In this document: positions 24,440-41,140 of the stretch, in pieces
How positions within the stretch are numbered: position 1 is the first letter of the stretch
How the letters are laid out: each line of letters opens with the position of its first letter
Assembly: GCA_024637155.1 (NCBI GenBank)
Contig: JAGXFR010000049.1
Span: 62,001-126,000, forward strand
Length of the DNA: 64,000 bases
Reading direction: 5' to 3'
Origin: Burkholderiaceae bacterium
GTDB taxonomy: Bacteria > Pseudomonadota > Gammaproteobacteria > Burkholderiales > Burkholderiaceae_E
Program-made: the position numbers and the translations under genes
The notes under the pieces: generated by a model
What the model was told of the DNA's origin: nothing
Databases searched by the model: none
Seen by the model: only the letters and a program-made list of their open reading frames with translations

Positions 24440-24919
24440 TCAGGGTTTGGGACCCGTCGGAAAGGGCCAGGCTGCCTGCGGTGCCGCTGACGGCGCAATC
24501 ACCGGAACCGGAGGCGTTTTGGGCACCGCCGGCTTCTTCACCGCCGGCTTTTTCGCTGCCGGTTTCGCTGCCGGTTTCGCTGCAGCTTTCTTCACCGCCG
24601 GCTTCTTGGCTGCGGCCTTCTTGGCTGCCGGCTTCTTGGCTGCCGGCTTCTTGGCTGCCGGCTTCTTCGCTACGGCCTTTTTCGCTGCCGGCTTTTTCGC
24701 CGCGGCTTTTTTCACCGCCGGCTTCTTCGCCGCAGCCTTCTTCACCGCCGGCTTCTTCGCCGCAGCCTTCTTCACTGCCGGCTTCTTCGCCGCGGCCTTC
24801 TTCACTGCCGGCTTCTTCGCCGCAGCCTTCTTCACTGCCGGCTTCTTCGCCGCAGGTTTTTTCGCCGCAGGTTTTTTCGCCGCAGCCTTCTTCACAGCAG
24901 GTTTTTTCACGGTAGCCAT
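24440..24919 (-). CDS. Histone H1-like Lys/Ala/Pro-rich protein
   Basis: This 159-residue basic protein consists almost wholly of repeated [10 protein letters not shown] / KKPAAKK units, followed by a short C-terminal tail ([20 protein letters not shown]). It matches the histone H1 C-terminal-like proteins of Betaproteobacteria (BpH1/HctB-like), which bind and condense DNA without sequence specificity. The ATG is preceded by a strong GAGGAG ribosome-binding site. A terminator lies 50 bases after the stop. Upstream is a probable separate RNA gene with its own terminator at 25061-25090, so the gene most likely has its own promoter within 24920-25060. Confidence 0.88.
24530..24910. repeat. Tandem degenerate 15/30-bp repeats inside the histone-like gene
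   Basis: Units of the form GCCGGCTTCTTCGCC with GCAGCCTTCTTCAC recur about a dozen times and encode the [10 protein letters not shown] blocks. Copies differ mainly at third positions. Such tracts vary in length between strains by slippage or recombination. Confidence 0.85.
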
Positions 24920-25060
24920 GGAACGATCTCCTCAGTTGATGATTGAGACTCGAAAGACCCGTCCGGTTAGTCTGTGAAGACTCGCGTTGCACGGGCCATT
25001 CATCGGCGCAACAACCGCCTGGTCGGCGGGGGTGTTCATTGCGCTAATGAATAGGGGGCT

Positions 25061-33269: not shown

Positions 33270-34721
33270 ATGGGCGCGCCGGACCTCACCGAACTCGCGG
33301 CATCCTTTCAGGGCCGGCTGCTCACCGACGCCGCCGATACCGCACCCTTTCTGGTCGACTGGCGCGGCCGCTACAGCGGTCTGGCGCTGGCCGTCGCGCA
33401 GCCCGACACCACCGAGGACGTCGCCGCCGTGGTGCGCTGGTGCGCCGCGCAGCGCGTGCCGATCGTGCCGCAAGGCGGCAACACGGGGCTGAGCGGCGGC
33501 GGAACGCCCGACGCGTCGGGGACCGCGCTGCTCCTCTCTCTCGCGCGGCTCAACCGGGTGCGCGCCGTGGACCCCGTCAACAACTCGCTGACCGTCGAGG
33601 CCGGCTGCGTGCTCGCCAATGTGCAGCAGGCGGCACGCGATGCCGGGCGGCTGTTTCCGCTCAGCCTCGGAGCGCAGGGCTCGTGCACCATCGGCGGCAA
33701 CCTCGCCACCAACGCCGGCGGCACCCAGGTGCTGCGCTACGGCAACAGCCGCGAACTGTGCCTCGGGCTGGAAGTGGTCACCGCCAGCGGCGAAATCTGG
33801 AACGGGCTGCGCGCGCTGCGCAAGGACAACACCGGCTACGACCTGCGTGACCTGTACATCGGCTCCGAAGGGACTCTCGGCGTGATCACCGCCGCCACGC
33901 TCAAGCTCTTTCCGCTGCCCGCCGCGCAGATGACCGCGTTCGCCGCGGTGTCCTCGCCCGACGATGCGCTGCGCCTGCTCGCGCTCGCGCAGCAGCAGCT
34001 CGGCGCCGCGCTCACCGCCTTCGAACTGATCAGCGACTTCTGCATCGAACTCGTCGAGCGGCACTTCCCCGAACTGCGCCGCCCGCTGGCCGGACACAGC
34101 CCCTATTACGTGCTGCTCGAATCCTCCGACTCGGACGGGGAGGCGCAGGCGACCGAGCGCTTCGAGGGGCTGCTGGGGGAGGCGCTGGCGGGAGAGGACG
34201 CCCCGGGTCGTCCGACCGCCGCGCCCTGCATCACCGACGCCGTGCTCGCCTCGTCGCTCGCGCAGGCCCGCTCGCTGTGGGCGATCCGCGAACACATCAC
34301 AATGGCGCAGATGGCCGAAGGCAAGAACATCAAGCACGACATCTCCGTGCCCATCTCGTCGATCCCCGCCTTCCTCGAGCAGGTCGACGCCGAGCTCGAG
34401 CGGCGCTTCCCCGGGGTGCGGGTCGTCAACTTCGGCCACCTCGGCGACGGCAACCTGCACTACAACGTCTCGCCGCCCGACTGGGGCACGGCGGGGCACC
34501 CGCCGACCGACCTGCAGGCCCTGCAGCCCGACATCAACCGGGTCGTCCACGATGCCGTGATCGAATTCAACGGCTCGATCTCCGCCGAGCACGGGCTCGG
34601 CCAGCTGCGCCGCGACGAGGCCGCGCGCTACAAGTCGCCGGTGGAGATGGCGCTGATGCGATCCGTGAAGCAGGCGCTCGACCCGCTGGGGATCATGAAT
34701 CCCGGGAAGGTGCTGGGGTAG
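33270..34721 (+). CDS. FAD-binding oxidoreductase, GlcD / D-2-hydroxyacid dehydrogenase type
   Basis: This 483-residue flavoprotein has a PCMH-type FAD domain (RVPIVPQGGNTGLSGGGTPD, GSCTIGGNLATNAGGT, IGSEGTLGVITAATLKL) and a C-terminal FAD-oxidase domain with HLGDGNLHYNVS and EHGLGQLRRDEAARYKSP. It ends in the usual DPLGIMNPGKVLG. Relatives oxidise D-2-hydroxyglutarate, D-lactate or glycolate; the substrate is undetermined. Its last 117 bases recur at 37184-37300 and a 36-base piece at 35584-35619, so its 3' end has been a recombination or insertion site although the gene itself is intact. Confidence 0.92.
   Translation: MGAPDLTELAASFQGRLLTDAADTAPFLVDWRGRYSGLALAVAQPDTTEDVAAVVRWCAAQRVPIVPQGGNTGLSGGGTPDASGTALLLSLARLNRVRAVDPVNNSLTVEAGCVLANVQQAARDAGRLFPLSLGAQGSCTIGGNLATNAGGTQVLRYGNSRELCLGLEVVTASGEIWNGLRALRKDNTGYDLRDLYIGSEGTLGVITAATLKLFPLPAAQMTAFAAVSSPDDALRLLALAQQQLGAALTAFELISDFCIELVERHFPELRRPLAGHSPYYVLLESSDSDGEAQATERFEGLLGEALAGEDAPGRPTAAPCITDAVLASSLAQARSLWAIREHITMAQMAEGKNIKHDISVPISSIPAFLEQVDAELERRFPGVRVVNFGHLGDGNLHYNVSPPDWGTAGHPPTDLQALQPDINRVVHDAVIEFNGSISAEHGLGQLRRDEAARYKSPVEMALMRSVKQALDPLGIMNPGKVLG
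34605..34721 (+). repeat. Direct repeat copy 1: 3' end of the GlcD-type gene
   Basis: This is the functional copy of a 117-base segment, running from CTGCGCCGCGACGAGG to the stop codon. It reappears at 37184-37300 with one visible mismatch (GGGGTAG versus GGCGTAG). Confidence 0.95.
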
Positions 34722-34782
34722 CGTTCCCTGCGGGCAATTGTGAAGCTTTGATCCTGCGATGGATTTCACTCGTTAAACTTTT

Positions 34783-35100
34783 TTACGCGGTCGGAACCGC
34801 GGACGCGGGTAGCGGTTGGACCGCCAGCCGCAGTCCCATCGCCTTGAGGATTGCCAACAAGCTGCTGAGCGCCGGATTGCCCTTCGGCGAGAGCGTGCGA
34901 TAAAGCTGCGTCGGGTTCAGGTGTGCCTGCTCGGCCACCGCCTGTACGCCGCCGAAGGCTTGGGCCATCTGGCGCAGCACAATCAGCAGTTCGGCTTGGT
35001 CGCCGTCTTCCAGAATACCGTTAACTACTTCCAGCGCGAACGCGGGATCGTTGCGGTACAACTCGGCCATCGCATCGTCATGGGGTCTACTTCTCATCAT
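34783..35100 (-). CDS. HigA/HI1420-type antitoxin
   Basis: This 105-residue antitoxin is of the HTH addiction-module antidote family paired with HI1419/HigB-like toxins. It has the opening YRNDPAFALEVVNGILEDGD, then FGGVQAVAEQAHLNPTQLYR as helix-turn-helix and the family-typical NPALSSLLAILKAMGLRL. It should bind and neutralise the toxin and repress the operon. The start is ATG 35100 or 35097; in the ancestral layout it overlaps the toxin stop. Because the toxin has a one-base deletion, the two genes now share one continuous 214-codon frame. Confidence 0.85.
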   Translation of the reverse strand: MMRSRPHDDAMAELYRNDPAFALEVVNGILEDGDQAELLIVLRQMAQAFGGVQAVAEQAHLNPTQLYRTLSPKGNPALSSLLAILKAMGLRLAVQPLPASAVPTA

Positions 35101-35427
35101 CTGTTCTCCGTTGCCAGTCCTGCCAGTAATCCACCGCCCGAGCGATGTCCGCGTCCTGCGTGCGTTGTCGCCGCCGCACAGCAACAACACCACACGCCGG
35201 CCCGACAAGGCGTAGTACACCCGGTAGCCCGGCCCCGCATCGATGCGCAGTTCCCACACGCCCTCGCGACAGAACTTGTGATCGCCGAAGTTGCCTTGTT
35301 CGATGCGGGTCACGCGTCGAACAACTGCAACCTTGGCTTGCCTGTCGCGTAGCCGCCCCAGCCAGTCGATGTACAAGTCCCTGTGCTCACCGGGACTCAG
35401 GTAGTGCTCAATCTCGTATGTCGTCAT
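35087..35427 (-). pseudogene. HigB/RelE-type toxin (HI1419 family), frameshifted near its C-terminus
   Basis: The first 87 residues (MTTYEIEHYL to LLLCGGD) match the phage-derived Gp49/HigB-like mRNA-interferase family, including GPGYRVYYALSGRRVVLLLC. After GGD the expected family ending is found only in another frame: inserting one base near 35164/35165 restores RTQDADIARAVDYWQDWQ and a stop at 35087-35089, 113 residues in all. The actual frame reads into the antitoxin. The deletion removes the C-terminal helix and basic residues usually needed for activity, so the toxin is probably dead or attenuated, unless ribosomes shift frame here. A single sequencing error would give the same picture. 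Confidence 0.8.
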
Positions 35428-35450
35428 TTTCGTCTATAAACGAATAGTCG

Positions 35451-35594
35451 TCAAGACGCAGAAACAGACGCAGAAACGGGTGTGGCAACCGTTCCCGCCA
35501 CCACCGTCTTGTGCGCGGTCAGCACCATGCCGACCTTGACCGGGATGCCCGAATTAGCGATGTCGGTGCCAGTCCGGCCGCAGCTGGGGATCAT
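35451..35594 (-). other. Short open frame, possible gene remnant
   Basis: A 47-codon frame starts inside the antisense of repeat copy 2 and reads on as TDIANSGIPVKVGMVLTAHK and then TVVAGTVATPVSASVSAS. The composition looks like a beta-rich protein end rather than random high-GC sequence, but I recognise no family. It may be a fragment carried in with the island. The rest of 35428-35770 holds the toxin promoter region and repeat copy 2. Confidence 0.25.
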
Positions 35595-35619
35595 GAATCC
35601 GGGGAAGGTGCTGGGGTAG
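35584..35619 (+). repeat. Direct repeat copy 2: last 36 bases of the GlcD-type gene
   Basis: From CTGGGGATCATGAATCC to the TAG it equals 34686-34721 with one mismatch (CCGGGG for CCCGGG). It lies between the toxin-antitoxin module and the nucleotidyltransferase gene, as if marking the junction of two insertions. Confidence 0.92.
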
Positions 35620-35622
35620 GAA

Positions 35623-35790
35623 TCAACCAGGTTGTGTCACTCGGGCCTGGATACTCTCGATATTCGCGCGGTTAGTAACTCGGTGTTTGCCGTCAGCGGC
35701 CTCGAACCTCAACCCGTGAAAAATTGTCACGACTTCACTGCCCTCAGCGCAAAGCTTGAACAGTTCTATTTCAGACCGAAGGGCCCGCAC
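35623..35790 (-). CDS. Possible small gene overlapping the nucleotidyltransferase 3' end
   Basis: A frame beginning at a GTG 20 bases before the nucleotidyltransferase stop gives 55 residues: VRALRSEIELFKLCAEG, then SEVVTIFHGLRFEAADGK and HRVTNRANIESIQARVTQPG. Unlike the shadow frames around it, it has balanced amino-acid use. It ends 4 bases before repeat copy 2. It could be a real small partner gene, or the truncated or frameshifted tail of the upstream gene. No family is recognised and no ribosome-binding site is clear. Confidence 0.35.
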   Translation of the reverse strand: MRALRSEIELFKLCAEGSEVVTIFHGLRFEAADGKHRVTNRANIESIQARVTQPG

Positions 35791-36874
35791 GTTGCCGCAG
35801 AGGTCGCGCTGAATCCGATTTCCTGGAAACAAGCTTTGCCAGGAACGGGTGGACCTCCAGATCGGGATGGGCCTTGCGCAGCGCGTCGGCCCCCTGACGA
35901 AAGCGGGACAGCCAGCGCTGGCCGCGAGACCGCAGATCGCGCGCTGCTTCTTCGACGGAATCGCGACGGTATTTCCACAGGAATGCGAGTAGCGCAGCGG
36001 CCTGCGCCAGGTCTTTGGCAGACTTGCTGCGAAACGTCCCGGTGCGTTGGCTATGCACCAGGAGCTTGTGCAGCGCAAAGTGCGCAGGATCCGGGACATT
36101 GACGACCAACGCCCCCTCGGCACAGAAGATCACCGCCTGTTCCACGGCCTCCAACGAGAAATCCATGAACGCCAGTGGCTGGAGCGTGATGTGCAGTTTC
36201 GGATGCACGAACGGCCCCCGGCCGCGATGCAGGGGCGTCAGAAAGTCGAGCCGAAACTCCGGCTCGTGGGGAATCAGGTAACTGCCACCGGCCTTCCCGC
36301 CCAGGCCCGAGATGGGCAGAAATCCCATGTTGAGCGAAGAAATCGCGTCGTCGGTCCGAACCTCCAGATTGCCTGGCAAGAGCAGGGCAAGCGCCTTCCC
36401 CGCGTGGGCAAAGTCGATGTCCTGCGTACGGTCCTGGCTGCCCCAGCGCGCACCCAGCATGTTTCCGCAGGCGAGAAAGGCATGGGTTCCCACGAGCACG
36501 CCACCGGCCTGGAAGAAACCGTAATCCGCCAGGCGACGCAGCACACGGTAGTGGCGCGGCAGCACCCCTTCGCAACCGAGCGCCAGCGCGGAACGCGCGA
36601 GCGGCCCGAGCGATGCGCCAGCGCCCGGTTCGGACTTGCGCGTCATCAGCCGCTGCACCGCCTCGTTGTCGGGCCCCACGTACACCTGGCGCAGAATTCC
36701 GGATGGTTCGGTGTACTGGAAGTACCAGTACTTCCTGCCCTTCACGATCTTCGCGTTGAACGAACCGCTAAGGTCAGCCACCGACCTGAGGTGCGCCGCG
36801 CCGAGCGCCGCATCGAGAAGCTGCGCGTAGGCGGTCTGGGCGGACAGCTTCAGTTCGGTGAAAAGAGCGGCCAT
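35771..36874 (-). CDS. GSU2403-type nucleotidyltransferase-fold protein
   Basis: This 367-residue protein is of the GSU2403 family (NTP_transf_8). After an N-terminal domain with GRKYWYFQYTEPSGILRQVY, the nucleotidyltransferase core has GGVLVGTHAF at about residues 124-133 and the acidic pair in RTQDIDFAH at about 149-157. A third acidic residue is probable in the FRLDFLTPL strand. The C-terminal part is helical and basic. The activity and target are unknown; the fold suits RNA or protein nucleotidylation, as in several toxin or defence enzymes. It sits alone in an island, behind an inverted-repeat promoter. An adjacent antidote gene is not obvious. Confidence 0.82.
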   Translation of the reverse strand: MAALFTELKLSAQTAYAQLLDAALGAAHLRSVADLSGSFNAKIVKGRKYWYFQYTEPSGILRQVYVGPDNEAVQRLMTRKSEPGAGASLGPLARSALALGCEGVLPRHYRVLRRLADYGFFQAGGVLVGTHAFLACGNMLGARWGSQDRTQDIDFAHAGKALALLLPGNLEVRTDDAISSLNMGFLPISGLGGKAGGSYLIPHEPEFRLDFLTPLHRGRGPFVHPKLHITLQPLAFMDFSLEAVEQAVIFCAEGALVVNVPDPAHFALHKLLVHSQRTGTFRSKSAKDLAQAAALLAFLWKYRRDSVEEAARDLRSRGQRWLSRFRQGADALRKAHPDLEVHPFLAKLVSRKSDSARPLRQRAGPSV

Positions 36875-36918
36875 GTCTGCTGGTGCGATGCCGTTGTGGG
36901 GTCTTCGACAAATGAGCC

Positions 36919-36953
36919 AGTTATACTAGTTTTGCATTCTGTCTAGTATAACT
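36919..36953. promoter_or_regulatory. Inverted repeat in the promoter of the nucleotidyltransferase gene
   Basis: AGTTATACTAG and CTAGTATAACT form perfect 11-bp arms with a 13-base spacer, about 45 bases before the gene. On the minus strand the proximal arm contains TATAAC, usable as a -10 box. A repressor bound here would block transcription. This stretch is clearly A+T-richer than its surroundings. Confidence 0.6.
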
Positions 36954-37006
36954 CTGCGGGGCGCCCTTCGGGATTGGCGTGCTTGGCGCGCGAAGCACCT
37001 TGTTCT

Positions 37007-37132
37007 GTTCGATCCGACGGGAGAGTTTGCGGCCGACCCTTCTCGCCAACCGACAACGGCGATCGCGCGTACGCCCACATTCTGGCGGATCTTCCCTGCG
37101 GCACGCCGGTCTTGATCGCCAATGCAGCGTAA
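37007..37132 (+). pseudogene. Possible remnant of an IS5-type transposase
   Basis: A 41-codon frame reads VRSDGRVCGRPFSPTDNGD then RAYAHILADLPCGTPVLIAN. The ILADLPCGTPVLIA part resembles the strand before the second catalytic Asp in IS5-family DDE transposases, but the downstream part is missing and no terminal inverted repeats are visible. The rest of 36954-37183 shows nothing else I can name. Confidence 0.25.
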
Positions 37133-37183
37133 TTCTCGCGGCCAAGGCATGTGGCAACGAGGCAGTGGGGCTCAATTGAACAA

Positions 37184-37300
37184 CTGCGCCGCGACGAGGC
37201 CGCGCGCTACAAGTCGCCGGTGGAGATGGCGCTGATGCGATCCGTGAAGCAGGCGCTCGACCCGCTGGGGATCATGAATCCCGGGAAGGTGCTGGCGTAG
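37184..37300 (+). repeat. Direct repeat copy 3: full 117-base copy of the GlcD-type 3' end
   Basis: It is identical in length and nearly in sequence to 34605-34721, including the stop codon. It has no start and is not a gene. It marks the far end of the island, and beyond it comes the terminator of the PEP-CTERM gene, presumably the original downstream neighbour. Confidence 0.93.
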
Positions 37301-37312
37301 TCGAAACCCGGG

Positions 37313-37341
37313 CGAAAAAAACGCCCCGCAGAGCGGGGCGT
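37313..37341 (-). terminator. Rho-independent terminator of the first PEP-CTERM gene
   Basis: Stem ACGCCCCGC / GCGGGGCGT with a 3-base loop is followed on the minus strand by TTTTTTTCG. It is 27 bases past the PEP-CTERM stop. Confidence 0.88.
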
Positions 37342-37367
37342 TGGGTCGGTCGGAAGTCTGGTTTTGA

Positions 37368-37922
37368 TTATTTCTTGCTGCGCCGGCGGGCGAGGCCGAG
37401 GCCGAGGACTCCGAGTCCGAGAAGAGCGAGGGTGGCGGGGGCGGGGACTGTTCGCTGCGGATCCCCAAGAATCGCGACGTGCGAGATCGCGCCATTCCCC
37501 GTCCAGAAACCATTCAGTTGCAGCGTGTCCTTTCCGTCCCACGATCCGATATCGAAGATGTACTGGGCGGGTTGATTGTTCCCATCCTTCACCAACAGGA
37601 AGCAATACGGACAAACGATGTAGCTGCCGCCGCCCCAGGTGATCGTCGCTTCCTGGGGATCAGAGGCCGTGTTGGCAAAAGTCGTCGAGTACCAACCTGC
37701 AGCCGAACCTGAGTCCGTCGGGTCGCCGACGTTCATCTTGTAGAGTTCGCTTACCGTTCGGCCCACGATGAGTGAGACGGCGGCGGCGTCGAGATTTGCA
37801 GTGCTGGAGCTCGTCCATTGCGGCGTGGTAGCGGGCGTGATCGTAACGATAGCAGCCTGCGCTTGCGCACTCAGCAGGGCGGCCGACACAGCCATCGTCT
37901 GAAGCATCGTCAACAGTTTCAT
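37368..37922 (-). CDS. PEP-CTERM exported protein
   Basis: This 184-residue protein has a signal peptide (MLQTMAVSAALLSAQAQA), a mature domain rich in Ser, Thr and Gly, and a C-terminal sorting signal: VPAPATLALLGLGVLGLG followed by ARRRSKK. The PEP motif is a VPAP variant. Exosortase EpsH is expected to cleave it and move the protein to the exopolysaccharide matrix; no exosortase gene is in the window. The ATG follows GAAGGAAAAC as ribosome-binding site. A sigma-54 type element lies 55 bases upstream. The mature sequence (YIVCPYCFLLVKDGNNQ) is not assigned to a known family. Confidence 0.9.
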   Translation of the reverse strand: MKLLTMLQTMAVSAALLSAQAQAAIVTITPATTPQWTSSSTANLDAAAVSLIVGRTVSELYKMNVGDPTDSGSAAGWYSTTFANTASDPQEATITWGGGSYIVCPYCFLLVKDGNNQPAQYIFDIGSWDGKDTLQLNGFWTGNGAISHVAILGDPQRTVPAPATLALLGLGVLGLGLARRRSKK

Positions 37923-37976
37923 TCTTTGTTTTCCTTCGTTCTCTCGCCAGAAAATCCGGCGTCCCGGGAGATACAA

Positions 37977-37991
37977 GCAAAATTCGCGCCA
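37977..37991 (-). promoter_or_regulatory. Sigma-54 -24/-12 promoter of the first PEP-CTERM gene
   Basis: On the minus strand TGGCGC-GAATT-TTGC matches the TGGCAC-N5-TTGC consensus with the invariant GG and GC at the correct spacing and one mismatch. Transcription would start near 37965, about 43 bases before the ATG. Confidence 0.75.
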
Positions 37992-38077
37992 GAGAATACT
38001 TTTCTCTTACTTATCAATGCCCCAAGGCGCCACTAGGGGGAATTTTTCTTCCCTGTTCGAGATGGCGAGGCGAAAAC

Positions 38078-38093
38078 GTCAATTTTCCCGACA
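38078..38093. promoter_or_regulatory. Candidate enhancer site upstream of the first PEP-CTERM promoter
   Basis: GTCA-N8-GACA (TGTC-N8-TGAC on the minus strand) lies about 90 bases upstream of the -24 element, a typical position for a sigma-54 activator. The remainder of 37992-38250 holds nothing else recognised; it ends at the 3' end of the intron. Confidence 0.3.
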
Positions 38094-38250
38094 CCCCATT
38101 TTGAGGGAATCGTCCCAACCTTGGCCACCGGCACTATCTGGCCATGCGCCGGCCGAGTCGAACGGAACCTTGATTCATGCGCTGCACCGCAGCAATCCGT
38201 GGACCCTGTCGTCGGACGCGAAGGGATCGCCAACTCGACTACCCCGCGGA

Positions 38251-40095
38251 ATCGGGATAGGGGCGATCAGTCTACCTGACCGCGCCCCTCCCACACCACA
38301 CGGCATGCGGGTCCGCACCGGGCGGTTCGAGAAGTTGAGGTCATGAGAGTCGAGGCACACCGAGTTGGTCGAAGTAGGCGATGGTCAGCACCCGTTGGAT
38401 GTCGCCATGGCTGTGTCGCCACCAGCAGCGGGAATTACCCGCCACACGCTTCGCCACATGCTCGGCTGCGCCCAGGTTGATCAGTTCCCGGTAGATCGTG
38501 CGACCTCGCTTCCAGTGCTTGAGATGGATTGCCCGAAGCCGGTGCCGCAACCATTCGTCCAGCGACAGCCAGACTTTCGGTGTTTGCGCCAGCCCATAGT
38601 AGGCCTTCCATCCCCGCAGGTAAGGTTTCAGCCGCTCGATGACTTCCGCCATGCTGCGTCCGCCCAAGCGTCGGGTCAGTTGTCTCACCCGTTGCTTGAA
38701 CGTCGCCATCGGCTTCACCGCCACACCCCGCTTGACCGTCCCCCCGTAGCTCCAGAAACTGTAGCCCAAGAACTTCCTCCCCGTCACATCGGCCACCGCG
38801 CTCTTGGTCTCATTGACCTTGAGCTGTAGCTTGGCGTAACACCGCCGCAAGAGCGCCATCACCCGCTCGCCTGCCTTCCGACTGTATACATAGACGTTGC
38901 AGTCGTCGGCATAGCGTGCGAAGCAGTGGCCATGCTGCTCCAGTACCTTATCCACTTCGTCCAGCATAACGTTCGCCAGCAGCGGTGACAGTGGCCCGCC
39001 TTGCGGCGTGCCCTGATACCGTTCCAGCACCACACCATCGCTCATGATGCCGCTGTTCAGGTACGCTCGTATCAGCCGAAGGATCCCGGCGTCGTCAATG
39101 CGTTTCCGTAGACGATCGATGAGGATGTCGTGATGGACGCGATCAAAGAATTTCTCCAGATCAACATCGACCACAATCCGCCGTCCGGACTGCACGTAGC
39201 CGTGCGCGGCCAAGACCGCGTCGTGCGCACGTCTGCCCGGCCGGAAGCCGTAGCTGTGTTCGCTGAAGGTGGGGTCAAGTAGCGGTTGCAGCACTTGCAG
39301 CAGCGCTTGCTGGATCAGCCGATCCGTGACCGTCGGGATGCCAAGCTCGCGCTCGCCCCCATCCGGTTTCGGGATCGTGACCCGTCGTCCCGGACTGGGC
39401 CGGTACGTCCCCCGCAGTAGTTGGTCACGTATCTGCGGCCACGCCGTCACCAGATGACGGGCGGTCTGCTCAATGTCCAGACCATCCACGCCGCCCGCGC
39501 CTTTGTTGGCCTTGACACGTTTCCACGCTTGCCGCAGGTTCTCTCTCGTCAGTGCTGCCCCCACCAGTGTCTCGGGCAGTCCTGACCCTGTGCTCTCGGT
39601 GTCATGTCGCGGGCGGCTCGCTTCGTCGCTGACCGGATCACGCCCGGCTTCACCGTGCGCTACGCCCGCCCGCTCCGCTGTCGCGGACTTCTGACGCCTT
39701 GCTTGCTGCATCGACATGGCCTTGAACACTTCTCCTCGTTCGGCCCTTCACCCCTTACCGGCAGCTACTACGACCTCTGCTGACTTCTCGCTCCGTGTCT
39801 CCACGTCAGCCTTTCAGCCATCAGGCGAGATCTCCCTGGGTAAGAACGCACTCCTTCCCTGCACAACCGCCGGATTTACGCCGCTTCGCCTTGATCACGA
39901 GAGCTTCGCGGAATCATGCCCGCTCGCCCTGCTCGGCAACGCCTTCTATCCGGTTCTTGTCCATCGGCTCGCAGTTTCGCTCCACGCTTCCTCCCCACAC
40001 TCGGTCGCCCTCATGCAGTTGCGCTTCGCTTCGCTCGCTGTGATCAACTTACGGTGGGACTTGCACCCACAAGAGTGCGCCCGTGCCGGGCGCAC
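38251..40095 (-). mobile_element. Complete group II intron, class C type
   Basis: The 5' end at 40095 reads GTGCGCCCGGCACGGGCGCA, the conserved GUGYG start with domain I, followed by GGGTGCAAGTCCCAC. The 3' end at about 38251 is CCCCTATCCCGAT, preceded by a domain V-like hairpin (about 38290-38330, starting GAACCGCCCGG) and a domain VI stem. The 1,845-base element holds one reverse transcriptase gene. The 5' exon is the terminator of the PEP-CTERM gene at 40145-40795: hairpin, then TTTTTCATT, then the intron. Insertion just after a terminator hairpin, with an intron protein lacking an endonuclease domain, is characteristic of class C. The element appears intact. Confidence 0.88.
38341..39717 (-). 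CDS. ltrA: Group II intron reverse transcriptase/maturase
   Basis: This intron-encoded protein of 458 residues has reverse-transcriptase blocks (TIPKPDGGERELGIPTVTDR, GFRPGRRAHDAVLAA, VDLEKFFDRVHHDIL, GTPQGGPLSPLLANVMLDEV), the catalytic YADD in FARYADDCNVYV, and the maturase domain X (ERLKPYLRGWKAYYGLAQTP). It ends at GVPRLS without an HNH endonuclease, as in class C introns, which use the replication fork or hairpin targets. ATG 39717 follows GAGGAGAA; a GTG at 39729 is an alternative. No frameshift is seen, so it is probably active. Confidence 0.93.
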   Translation of the reverse strand: MSMQQARRQKSATAERAGVAHGEAGRDPVSDEASRPRHDTESTGSGLPETLVGAALTRENLRQAWKRVKANKGAGGVDGLDIEQTARHLVTAWPQIRDQLLRGTYRPSPGRRVTIPKPDGGERELGIPTVTDRLIQQALLQVLQPLLDPTFSEHSYGFRPGRRAHDAVLAAHGYVQSGRRIVVDVDLEKFFDRVHHDILIDRLRKRIDDAGILRLIRAYLNSGIMSDGVVLERYQGTPQGGPLSPLLANVMLDEVDKVLEQHGHCFARYADDCNVYVYSRKAGERVMALLRRCYAKLQLKVNETKSAVADVTGRKFLGYSFWSYGGTVKRGVAVKPMATFKQRVRQLTRRLGGRSMAEVIERLKPYLRGWKAYYGLAQTPKVWLSLDEWLRHRLRAIHLKHWKRGRTIYRELINLGAAEHVAKRVAGNSRCWWRHSHGDIQRVLTIAYFDQLGVPRLS

Positions 40096-40102
40096 AATGA
40101 AA

Positions 40103-40125
40103 AACGCCCCGCATCGCGGGGCGTT
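40103..40125 (-). terminator. Rho-independent terminator of the second PEP-CTERM gene and intron insertion target
   Basis: Stem AACGCCCCGC / GCGGGGCGTT with a 3-base loop is followed on the minus strand by TTTCATT and then the first base of the intron. The stem is almost identical to that of the other PEP-CTERM gene (37313-37341). Confidence 0.9.
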
Positions 40126-40144
40126 CGTGCAATCGACGGCGTGG

Positions 40145-40795
40145 TCAGGATTGTTGTTTGCGCCGGCGGGCGAGCGCGAAGCCGAGGGCTCCGATACCGA
40201 AGAGTGCAAGCGACATCGGTTCCGGGATCGGACCACAATTCACGGTGCAGGGGGGAACATTGGCACCGATCAAGAAGACGTTCTCGGTACCATCATTTGC
40301 ATTGTTGAAGACAAAGTGGAATTGGACCGTATCGGTCGAGAGAAACGAAGAAAAGTTTCTCAGCGTGTAGTCTGACCAACCAGTCCCGTTGGCGGTGTCT
40401 GGCACGTTGCCCGCAGAACCCGTATACGTGTCGACGACGAACCCGTTCACCAGCATTTCGAACGTTGTCAGCGTTTGGGCACTCCCCCCCTGATTGATAT
40501 CGATACCGAGCAGCATCGGGGTGCCGGCGATGCCCAGCAGCGTCGCGCCACTATATACAGGCGACAAAGCATCGTAGCCACTCACGTTCCCGCCGGTATC
40601 CAAGTTCGTTGAAAGAAAGAACCCGTTTTGTGCGGTACCGCTGGCGCAAGGTGGGTTGCTGAAGATGCACGGGCTCTGGGCTGTCTGCTGGTAGAGATTG
40701 GGCGCCGGGTCCAAAATGAGCACGTTGGCAGCAGCGGAGCCACCGAACGCAAGACCTGCCAAGCCGACCAGCACTGCTGAGAATTTTGCCTTCAT
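40145..40795 (-). CDS. PEP-CTERM exported protein
   Basis: This 216-residue protein has a signal peptide (MKAKFSAVLVGLAGLAFGGS, cleaved near AAAN), an Asn/Gly/Thr-rich beta-type mature domain (about 25-185) and the C-terminal signal IPEPMSLALFGIGALGFALA followed by RRRKQQS. The mature region carries two Cys pairs (CIFSNPPC and CTVNC). It is predicted to be an exosortase substrate delivered to the extracellular matrix. A consensus sigma-54 element lies about 60 bases upstream of the start, and the terminator at 40103 has been invaded by a group II intron. Its ligand or function is unknown. Confidence 0.92.
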   Translation of the reverse strand: MKAKFSAVLVGLAGLAFGGSAAANVLILDPAPNLYQQTAQSPCIFSNPPCASGTAQNGFFLSTNLDTGGNVSGYDALSPVYSGATLLGIAGTPMLLGIDINQGGSAQTLTTFEMLVNGFVVDTYTGSAGNVPDTANGTGWSDYTLRNFSSFLSTDTVQFHFVFNNANDGTENVFLIGANVPPCTVNCGPIPEPMSLALFGIGALGFALARRRKQQS

Positions 40796-40856
40796 GATTC
40801 TTGACTCCTTACATTCACAAACGTTGGCTGGCTATCGGCCAGACGCCAGTGATTTA

Positions 40857-40871
40857 GCAAGACGCGTGCCA
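40857..40871 (-). promoter_or_regulatory. Sigma-54 -24/-12 promoter of the second PEP-CTERM gene
   Basis: On the minus strand TGGCAC-GCGTC-TTGC is a perfect match to the sigma-54 consensus with correct spacing. Transcription would start near 40845, some 50 bases before the ATG at 40795. Confidence 0.85.
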
Positions 40872-40924
40872 GAAAAGAAGATTCCTTTTCCGAAAAGGAC
40901 TTGTGCTACTGCCCCGGTTATCGC

Positions 40925-40941
40925 TTGACGAATACTGTCAA
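40925..40941. promoter_or_regulatory. Candidate activator site upstream of the second PEP-CTERM promoter
   Basis: The inverted repeat TTGAC-N7-GTCAA lies about 55-70 bases upstream of the -24 element. Position and symmetry suit a sigma-54 enhancer-binding protein. The rest of 40796-41147 shows no gene. Confidence 0.35.
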
Positions 40942-41107
40942 GAATTTCGACGGGCGTCGCGGCGCGTACGCGTGCCCGGGATCGTCAGAGCCTTTAGCCA
41001 GTGCGGGGACGAATGACTCGCCCTGCGACGGACAGGCACCCGACCGTTGAGCGCAGACTGGCCGATGGACGCTCCTGGTCCTAAGCGCCCAGTCAGCCGA
41101 GGGTGTA

Positions 41108-41140
41108 AGAAACGGCGACACACCCAATGGGGTGACGCCG
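41108..41140 (-). terminator. Candidate terminator of the liv operon
   Basis: On the minus strand CGGCG-T-CACCC pairs with GGGTG-TGT-CGCCG around a short CATT loop, then GTTTCTT follows. It is 8 bases past the livF stop. The T-tract is weak. Confidence 0.45.

Follow-up and report, generated by a model that had tools for sequence, protein, structure and literature searches.

This analysis concerns a small genomic island at the 3' end of a flavoprotein gene in a Burkholderiaceae bacterium. The island lies within a stretch of 64,000 nucleotides (assembly GCA_024637155.1, contig JAGXFR010000049.1, positions 62,001 to 126,000), which we call the window and whose first base is position 1. The target gene (33270-34721, forward strand) is an open reading frame for a 483-residue FAD-linked oxidase carrying the FAD_binding_4 (PF01565) and FAD-oxidase_C (PF02913) domains. 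The original prediction had termed it a GlcD-type gene; the flavoprotein assignment holds, but the GlcD model gives the protein 253 bits, and because this is far under the cut-off of 568 we name it GlcD-like only. Repeat alignment places the end of this gene on the forward strand three times. The proximal copy (E1, 34602-34721, 120 bp) ends at the stop codon, the middle copy (E2, 35583-35619) is partial and comprises the last 37 bp, and the distal copy (E3, 37181-37300) stands beside the native downstream terminator and is taken as the original gene end. Unit 1 (34722-35582, 0.9 kb) contains an antitoxin gene, a RelE/ParE-type toxin gene and the 3' remnant of an integrase gene, and unit 2 (35620-37180, 1.6 kb) contains a Bro-N gene remnant followed by a nucleotidyltransferase gene (PF12281). 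Family scans agree with the prediction on the toxin-antitoxin cargo of unit 1 and the nucleotidyltransferase of unit 2.

E1 and E3 form a direct repeat of 120 nt that is 98.3% identical, with 2 mismatches at repeat positions 3 and 116. An earlier description of this repeat as 117 bp with one mismatch is accurate for its shorter span, and the third copy, earlier placed at 35584-35619 (36 bases), is real and extends one base further, with 1 mismatch to E1. Mismatches aside, all three copies match through the stop codon TAG and differ immediately beyond it, where three different sequences follow. Direct repeats thus placed at both ends of the island, one of them overlapping the restored gene end, are a hallmark of integrative elements. 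The copies are far beyond chance: a search of the whole 3.2-Mb assembly returned only these three as good matches to the gene end (expectation values (E) of 5.7e-56, 1.8e-54 and 2.9e-11), followed by a 31-nt match at 87% identity (E 5.9e-4). Repeats this long are otherwise rare in the window. Apart from the gene-end copies, the direct-repeat families of at least 45 nt amount to a 15-bp tandem array, motifs in transporter-ATPase genes, the terminal parts of two PEP-CTERM genes and a single pair at 72%, with gene labels assigned from coordinates and family scans.

Beyond E3 lie a terminator-like hairpin (37320-37342, reverse strand) and a PEP-CTERM protein gene (37368-37976, reverse strand) that marks the far flank. 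We compared the site in four genomes of the genus, the window's own (G000) and three congeners. In G002 there is one copy of the gene end, followed directly by a similar terminator-like stretch and a related PEP-CTERM gene; this is an empty site, such as relatives are expected to show where an integrative element has entered. In G003, two copies surround a gene for a 305-residue Bro-N protein, and the similar terminator and related PEP-CTERM gene come after the second copy. No copy of the gene end was found in G001. The prediction had asked for empty sites and for other cargo between copies, and these genomes supply both; it had also named the same three copies in every relative as grounds for rejection, a situation contradicted by the single copy in G002 and the two in G003. 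These findings support its proposal that the 3' end of the gene is an accessory site.

The same comparison bears on two simpler accounts. Repeats are a classic site of misassembly, and the genome is a metagenome bin, so an assembly artefact has to be considered; we regard it as highly improbable because the separately assembled genome of G003 has the same kind of architecture, and the copies here are not identical and lie on a single 163-kb contig. A tandem duplication of the whole gene in an ancestor, after which the second copy was eroded until only its last 120 bp remained and other DNA entered between the two, would suit the distal copy, which adjoins the native terminator and is eroding in G003, where it is the drifted one of two copies that differ at 16 of 120 positions. 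However, neither between the copies nor beyond them does G000 show any trace of the 0.8 kb that precedes this end in the gene (query 33800-34721), or G003 any of the gene body, and the third copy and the exact change of sequence at the stop codon would go unexplained. We consider this account improbable. In the window and in G003 alike, the distal copy aligns ungapped over its 120 bp, with the similar terminator and PEP-CTERM gene adjoining.

Unit 2 corresponds to the G003 cassette at both ends, weakly at the right one, but has a different middle. At the left, window positions 35583-35647 and 35650-35750 match the first G003 copy, the DNA after it and part of the Bro gene at 88-89% identity; the alignment score of 142 was not reached in any of 300 shuffles (maximum 30). 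From this match and its translation, 35620-35750 (reverse strand) is a remnant of the Bro-N gene with its downstream DNA. The right end (37079-37147) is weakly related to the same position in G003, in both genomes beside the distal copy, with a score of 30 against a largest value of 27 in 300 shuffles. The G003 Bro-N protein matches the PADLOC family PDC-S13, a candidate family, at 2e-114, and a search with part of its sequence scored exactly at the cut-off for Pfam Bro-N; a literature search on PDC-S13 and on defence hotspots found nothing. Since E2 carries the G003-type base, it represents the left edge of the older cassette, with unit 1 lying between E2 and E1. The middle of unit 2 is occupied by a gene for a 367-residue protein of the GSU2403-type nucleotidyltransferase fold (PF12281; 35771-36874, reverse strand), whose plasmid relatives are annotated as GSU2403 family and which is found in neither G003 nor G002 at the DNA level. 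About 45 bp upstream of its start lies a perfect inverted repeat of 33 bp with 10-bp arms (36920-36952; GTTATACTAG, 13 nt, CTAGTATAAC), a pattern that occurred in none of 100 shuffles of the window and that looks like an operator.

Unit 1 begins with a stretch (34722-34812, delimited by sequence comparison) that runs up to the start of homology with pPNAP01 of Polaromonas and has no relative in 40 other genomes except one 22-nt match in G007. The antitoxin gene (34783-35097, reverse strand; start placed by residue count in the open reading frame translation) is an HI1420-type addiction module antidote (PF21716), and the toxin gene (35087-35427, reverse strand; TIGR02683) is of the RelE/ParE type (HI1419). 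Scanned together as one fused frame, the toxin scored 97.8 in NCBIfam (over the cut-off of 62.9) and 22.5 for Pfam Gp49 (just under 23.9), and the antitoxin scored 42.6 in Pfam (over 27) and 43.5 in NCBIfam (under 53.7). Both genes are related to type II toxin-antitoxin systems of the HI1419/HI1420 kind, and they are 88% identical to pPNAP01 DNA over 708 aligned bases. The toxin reading frame is not intact, its 3' part being frameshifted relative to the intact Polaromonas toxin, which may be a sequencing error.

Next to the toxin gene lies the 3' end of a tyrosine-recombinase (integrase) gene (35451-35582, reverse strand), identified by homology to pPNAP01 and Cupriavidus, with an internal deletion of 84 bp and its 5' side facing E2. 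The best piece of this remnant of about 130 bp is identical to the pPNAP01 integrase at 67 of 68 bp. It runs right up to E2, because homology to a Cupriavidus plasmid integrase locus reaches query position 129, which is window position 35583. The prediction that neither cassette carries an integrase is correct as regards an intact gene and misses this remnant. No conjugation genes were found among the 4 open reading frames scanned between E1 and E3, of which 2 matched families (the toxin-antitoxin frame and the nucleotidyltransferase). The combination of conjugation genes with an integrase that marks a Tn4371-type conjugative element is accordingly not present here; the Polaromonas integrase is putatively linked to Tn4371.

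We built rooted trees from the liv operon (about 3 kb) and from 380 bp of the flavoprotein gene, two linked loci, using other genera as outgroups; 10 outgroup loci were considered for the liv tree, of which the 3 with matches of more than 2,500 bases were used, 2 shorter ones and 5 without a match being left out. Both trees join G003 with the empty G002 (support 80 and 99). Pairwise identities in the liv operon are less clear, with G003 at about 87% to both others and G000 and G002 at 83.5% to each other. On the evidence of the trees, a single ancestral insertion without loss was dropped as an explanation. The older cassette was either ancestral and lost cleanly from G002 or acquired on two occasions. 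The data do not decide between these courses, each of which requires that gain or loss here was precise.

We propose, as the probable though far from certain explanation, that the 3' end of this gene holds the decayed form of an integrative element that lacks an integrase, joined by a second insertion at the same site and followed by partial homogenisation of the repeats. An integrative element would have entered by recombination at a point some 120 bp ahead of the stop codon. Because it brought a replacement for those 120 bp, the gene would have stayed whole with an E1-type end, and the original end would have been pushed to the far side as E3. An insert that recombines inside the coding end must resupply the sequence through the stop codon and no further, which is what the copies show. 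The first element would correspond to unit 2, with ends common to G003; its candidate defence gene, intact in G003, would have been mostly deleted here, with the nucleotidyltransferase gene now sitting in its place. A second element, bearing the toxin-antitoxin module and its own integrase, would later have inserted at the same gene end. The proposal is favoured by the integrase remnant beside the toxin, arranged as in pPNAP01, by the integrase-led toxin-antitoxin pair of G008 described below, and by the lower guanine-cytosine content of the inserts (60.5 and 62.2% against 70.9% in the flavoprotein gene). One deletion reaching from within the integrase gene into the adjoining copy may have removed most of the integrase and the first 83 bp of the copy; such an event would account at once for the missing integrase and for the shortness of the 37-bp copy. 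E1 and E3 may since have recombined by gene conversion, or E1 may have been supplied by an element from the same lineage.

Several observations weigh against this proposal. The island has no intact integrase, and none of the 6 tyrosine recombinases in the assembly is encoded on this contig. E2 has a length of 37 bp instead of 120. The integrase piece may have come in as a passenger, already broken, given that related modules in G196 and G275 likewise adjoin broken integrase pieces. The long copies are most alike within a species (98.3% in the window, about 87% in G003), and homogenisation or same-lineage donors must be added because a foreign element would carry its own alleles. Outside the genus, no end duplication was seen in the data compared. 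The gene end is matched at E 1e-6 in 57 of 74 family genomes, with at most 11 candidates scored per genome, and a tandem second copy occurs only in G000 and G003; where other genomes have additional matches, these are on different contigs or separated by more than 100 kb. In G016 the last 116 bp of the gene also occur 400 kb away, and we set this case aside as a scaffolding effect, as both places border runs of N. No downstream duplication was found in 20 other relatives (1.3-19 kb downstream each; one 15-nt chance match), nor in the best 80 of at least 465 named loci in a public genome collection, 68 of which had at least 2 kb downstream; 17 of the 80 gave matches of 9-35 nt that we take as chance. 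Because many assemblies are fragmented, such absence is not proof for each genome. No free copy of the gene end was found in phages, nor in viral contigs either as an exact pattern or as the encoded peptide, and the plasmid matches, among those listed (30 of 47 records), fall in FAD-oxidase genes or unannotated places. Across the 74 family genomes, the best 80 named loci, phages, viral contigs and listed plasmid records, no full element using this attachment (att) site was found.

A rival account is integrase-free acquisition, with foreign fragments arriving by transformation or template switching, being joined by short homology with part of the gene end duplicated, and the repeats then trading sequence, as in the minimal mobile elements of transformable bacteria. 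The lack of an intact integrase anywhere on the contig, the island included, the unequal duplication lengths of 120 and 37, and the likeness of the copies within a species, which fits copying of the host's own DNA, all point this way, as do the E1/E3 mismatches at the extreme edges of the repeat, where a conversion tract would leave them. Against it, random joins need not choose an end exactly at the stop codon or a 120-bp left edge that is alike in both species, and an integrase remnant sits at one junction. We view this alternative as possible but rather unlikely, and return to the decayed integrative element as our preferred explanation.

The homogenisation that this explanation includes can be examined in the copies themselves. 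Between G000 and G003 the gene end diverges by 6%, and the remainder of the gene by about 18%. Supposing that E3 is of the same age as the shared cassette, it would be expected, as a copy free of constraint, to have drifted like the distal copy of G003. Both E1/E3 mismatches fall within 5 bases of the repeat edges, an arrangement that uniform scatter would give in an estimated 0.7% of cases ((10/120) squared). Gene conversion between E1 and E3 is therefore likely, given their 98.3% identity and mismatches at the edges; a second-wave insertion from the same lineage also fits.

The original prediction thus fared unevenly. Its stepwise filling of the site is upheld as build-up, with E2 continuing past the stop codon into the G003-like left end of the older cassette. 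Its picture of two cassettes each restoring the gene end was not sustained, given a 37-bp E2, a mostly deleted Bro gene, a frameshifted toxin and an integrase remnant. As for att-type integration, the gene-end pattern fits, and homogenisation has probably reshaped the copies; we infer the mechanism rather than observe it, because no active integrase, and no phage, using the site was found. Since only the 3' remnant of an integrase is present, we describe the locus as a decayed relic that works like an integrative element and not as a full member of that class.

Known systems offer partial parallels. The e14 prophage of Escherichia coli displaces the last 163 bp of icd and provides a new end, the displaced original being left behind as a duplicate (PMC6379469). 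As with e14, a protein-gene end is duplicated here and the original displaced; unlike that 15-kb prophage, the inserts here measure 0.9 and 1.6 kb, lack an intact integrase and are accompanied by three copies of the gene end. A literature search on phage 21 and icd found nothing relevant. ICESt1 and ICESt3 of Streptococcus thermophilus integrate within the 3' end of fda (PMC3234194), and tandem accretion at one site is described for S. suis (PMC7168690). The island resembles ICESt1/ICESt3 and their derived islands in using the 3' end of a protein gene and in its proposed history of deletion and stacking, but it has no conjugation gene or whole recombination gene, and no full-length element was found at the site. 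Papers by Pavlovic (2004) and Bellanger (2011) name accretion and cis-mobilisation in their titles. A cis-mobilisable element (CIME) is a decayed island with att sites, in which flanking repeats remain without recombination or conjugation genes, and the present locus likewise has flanking att-like repeats without intact genes of either kind. Minimal mobile elements of Neisseria are small variable cargo between conserved genes, with no recombinase of their own and homologous exchange between flanks; the island shares the small, recombinase-less variable cargo, whereas gene-end duplication is not known to be part of their definition. The pPNAP01 module, annotated as consecutive whole integrase, toxin and antitoxin genes, has homologous toxin-antitoxin genes and integrase 3' end in the same order, but the integrase is whole there and mostly gone here, the toxin is frameshifted here, and no copy of this gene end was found in the 6.8 kb of pPNAP01 compared. 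The kind of element is an established one; its site and content are new, the novelty of the site resting on a limited literature search that returned no fitting description of this kind of gene as an integration site.

Empty, one-cassette, and stacked and decaying states within one genus make this a compact case of a gene end as a repeated landing site, at which inserts lose their integrase and keep toxin-antitoxin and candidate defence cargo. The repeats apparently trade sequence after insertion, which would mask the age of an island if the identity of its flanking repeats served as a clock. A more speculative view, which we hold to be doubtful, is that of a genus-specific hotspot in which a helper recombinase that recognises the flavoprotein gene end acts in trans to move tiny cassettes bearing candidate defence cargo but no integrase, and in which these are cleanly lost by recombination between copies, so that the site turns over between species.

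Relatives of this integrase type at E 1e-60 or better occur in 2 of 61 genomes. The G008 relative shares 72% identity with the Polaromonas integrase and stands at the head of a pair of Gp49-type toxin and helix-turn-helix (HTH) antitoxin genes; its locus (L147, 7391-12372) continues with two large genes that look like defence genes, and is possibly an integrase-led defence island. The integrase lies downstream of a gene that is putatively panB. No repeat of at least 28 bases was found in 16 kb of this locus, nor any tRNA there, and the end of the putative panB gene had only matches of chance size downstream, as far as the contig end. The relative in G027 is a partial match with one 72-nt repeat some 4 kb away. 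Related toxin-antitoxin modules stand beside broken integrase pieces in G196 (L162, 4226-5108) and G275 (L163, 134-1113), whereas the related module of G233 is the third of these, and the 14 kb around it that was compared contains no integrase piece. Around these three modules no flanking repeats were found in the DNA fetched, with that of G275 at a contig edge; one 68-bp repeat in G233 lies away from its module. The toxin-antitoxin module may outlive its integrase repeatedly.

The region from the flavoprotein gene to the liv operon (34722-41140) is variable as a whole: the distance is 6.4 kb in the window, about 2 kb in G003 and about 8 kb in G002, and seemingly almost nil in G008. It includes a group II intron (38341-40014; a reverse transcriptase/maturase gene with RNA matches to D1-D4) between two PEP-CTERM genes, before the liv transporter operon. 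We considered this intron as a cause of the island and set it aside, as its position is on the far side of the PEP-CTERM gene, outside the repeats, and no link was seen. Elsewhere in the window, the degenerate 15-bp units of the tandem array span about 0.4 kb (24531-24947) within a stretch covered by long open reading frames.

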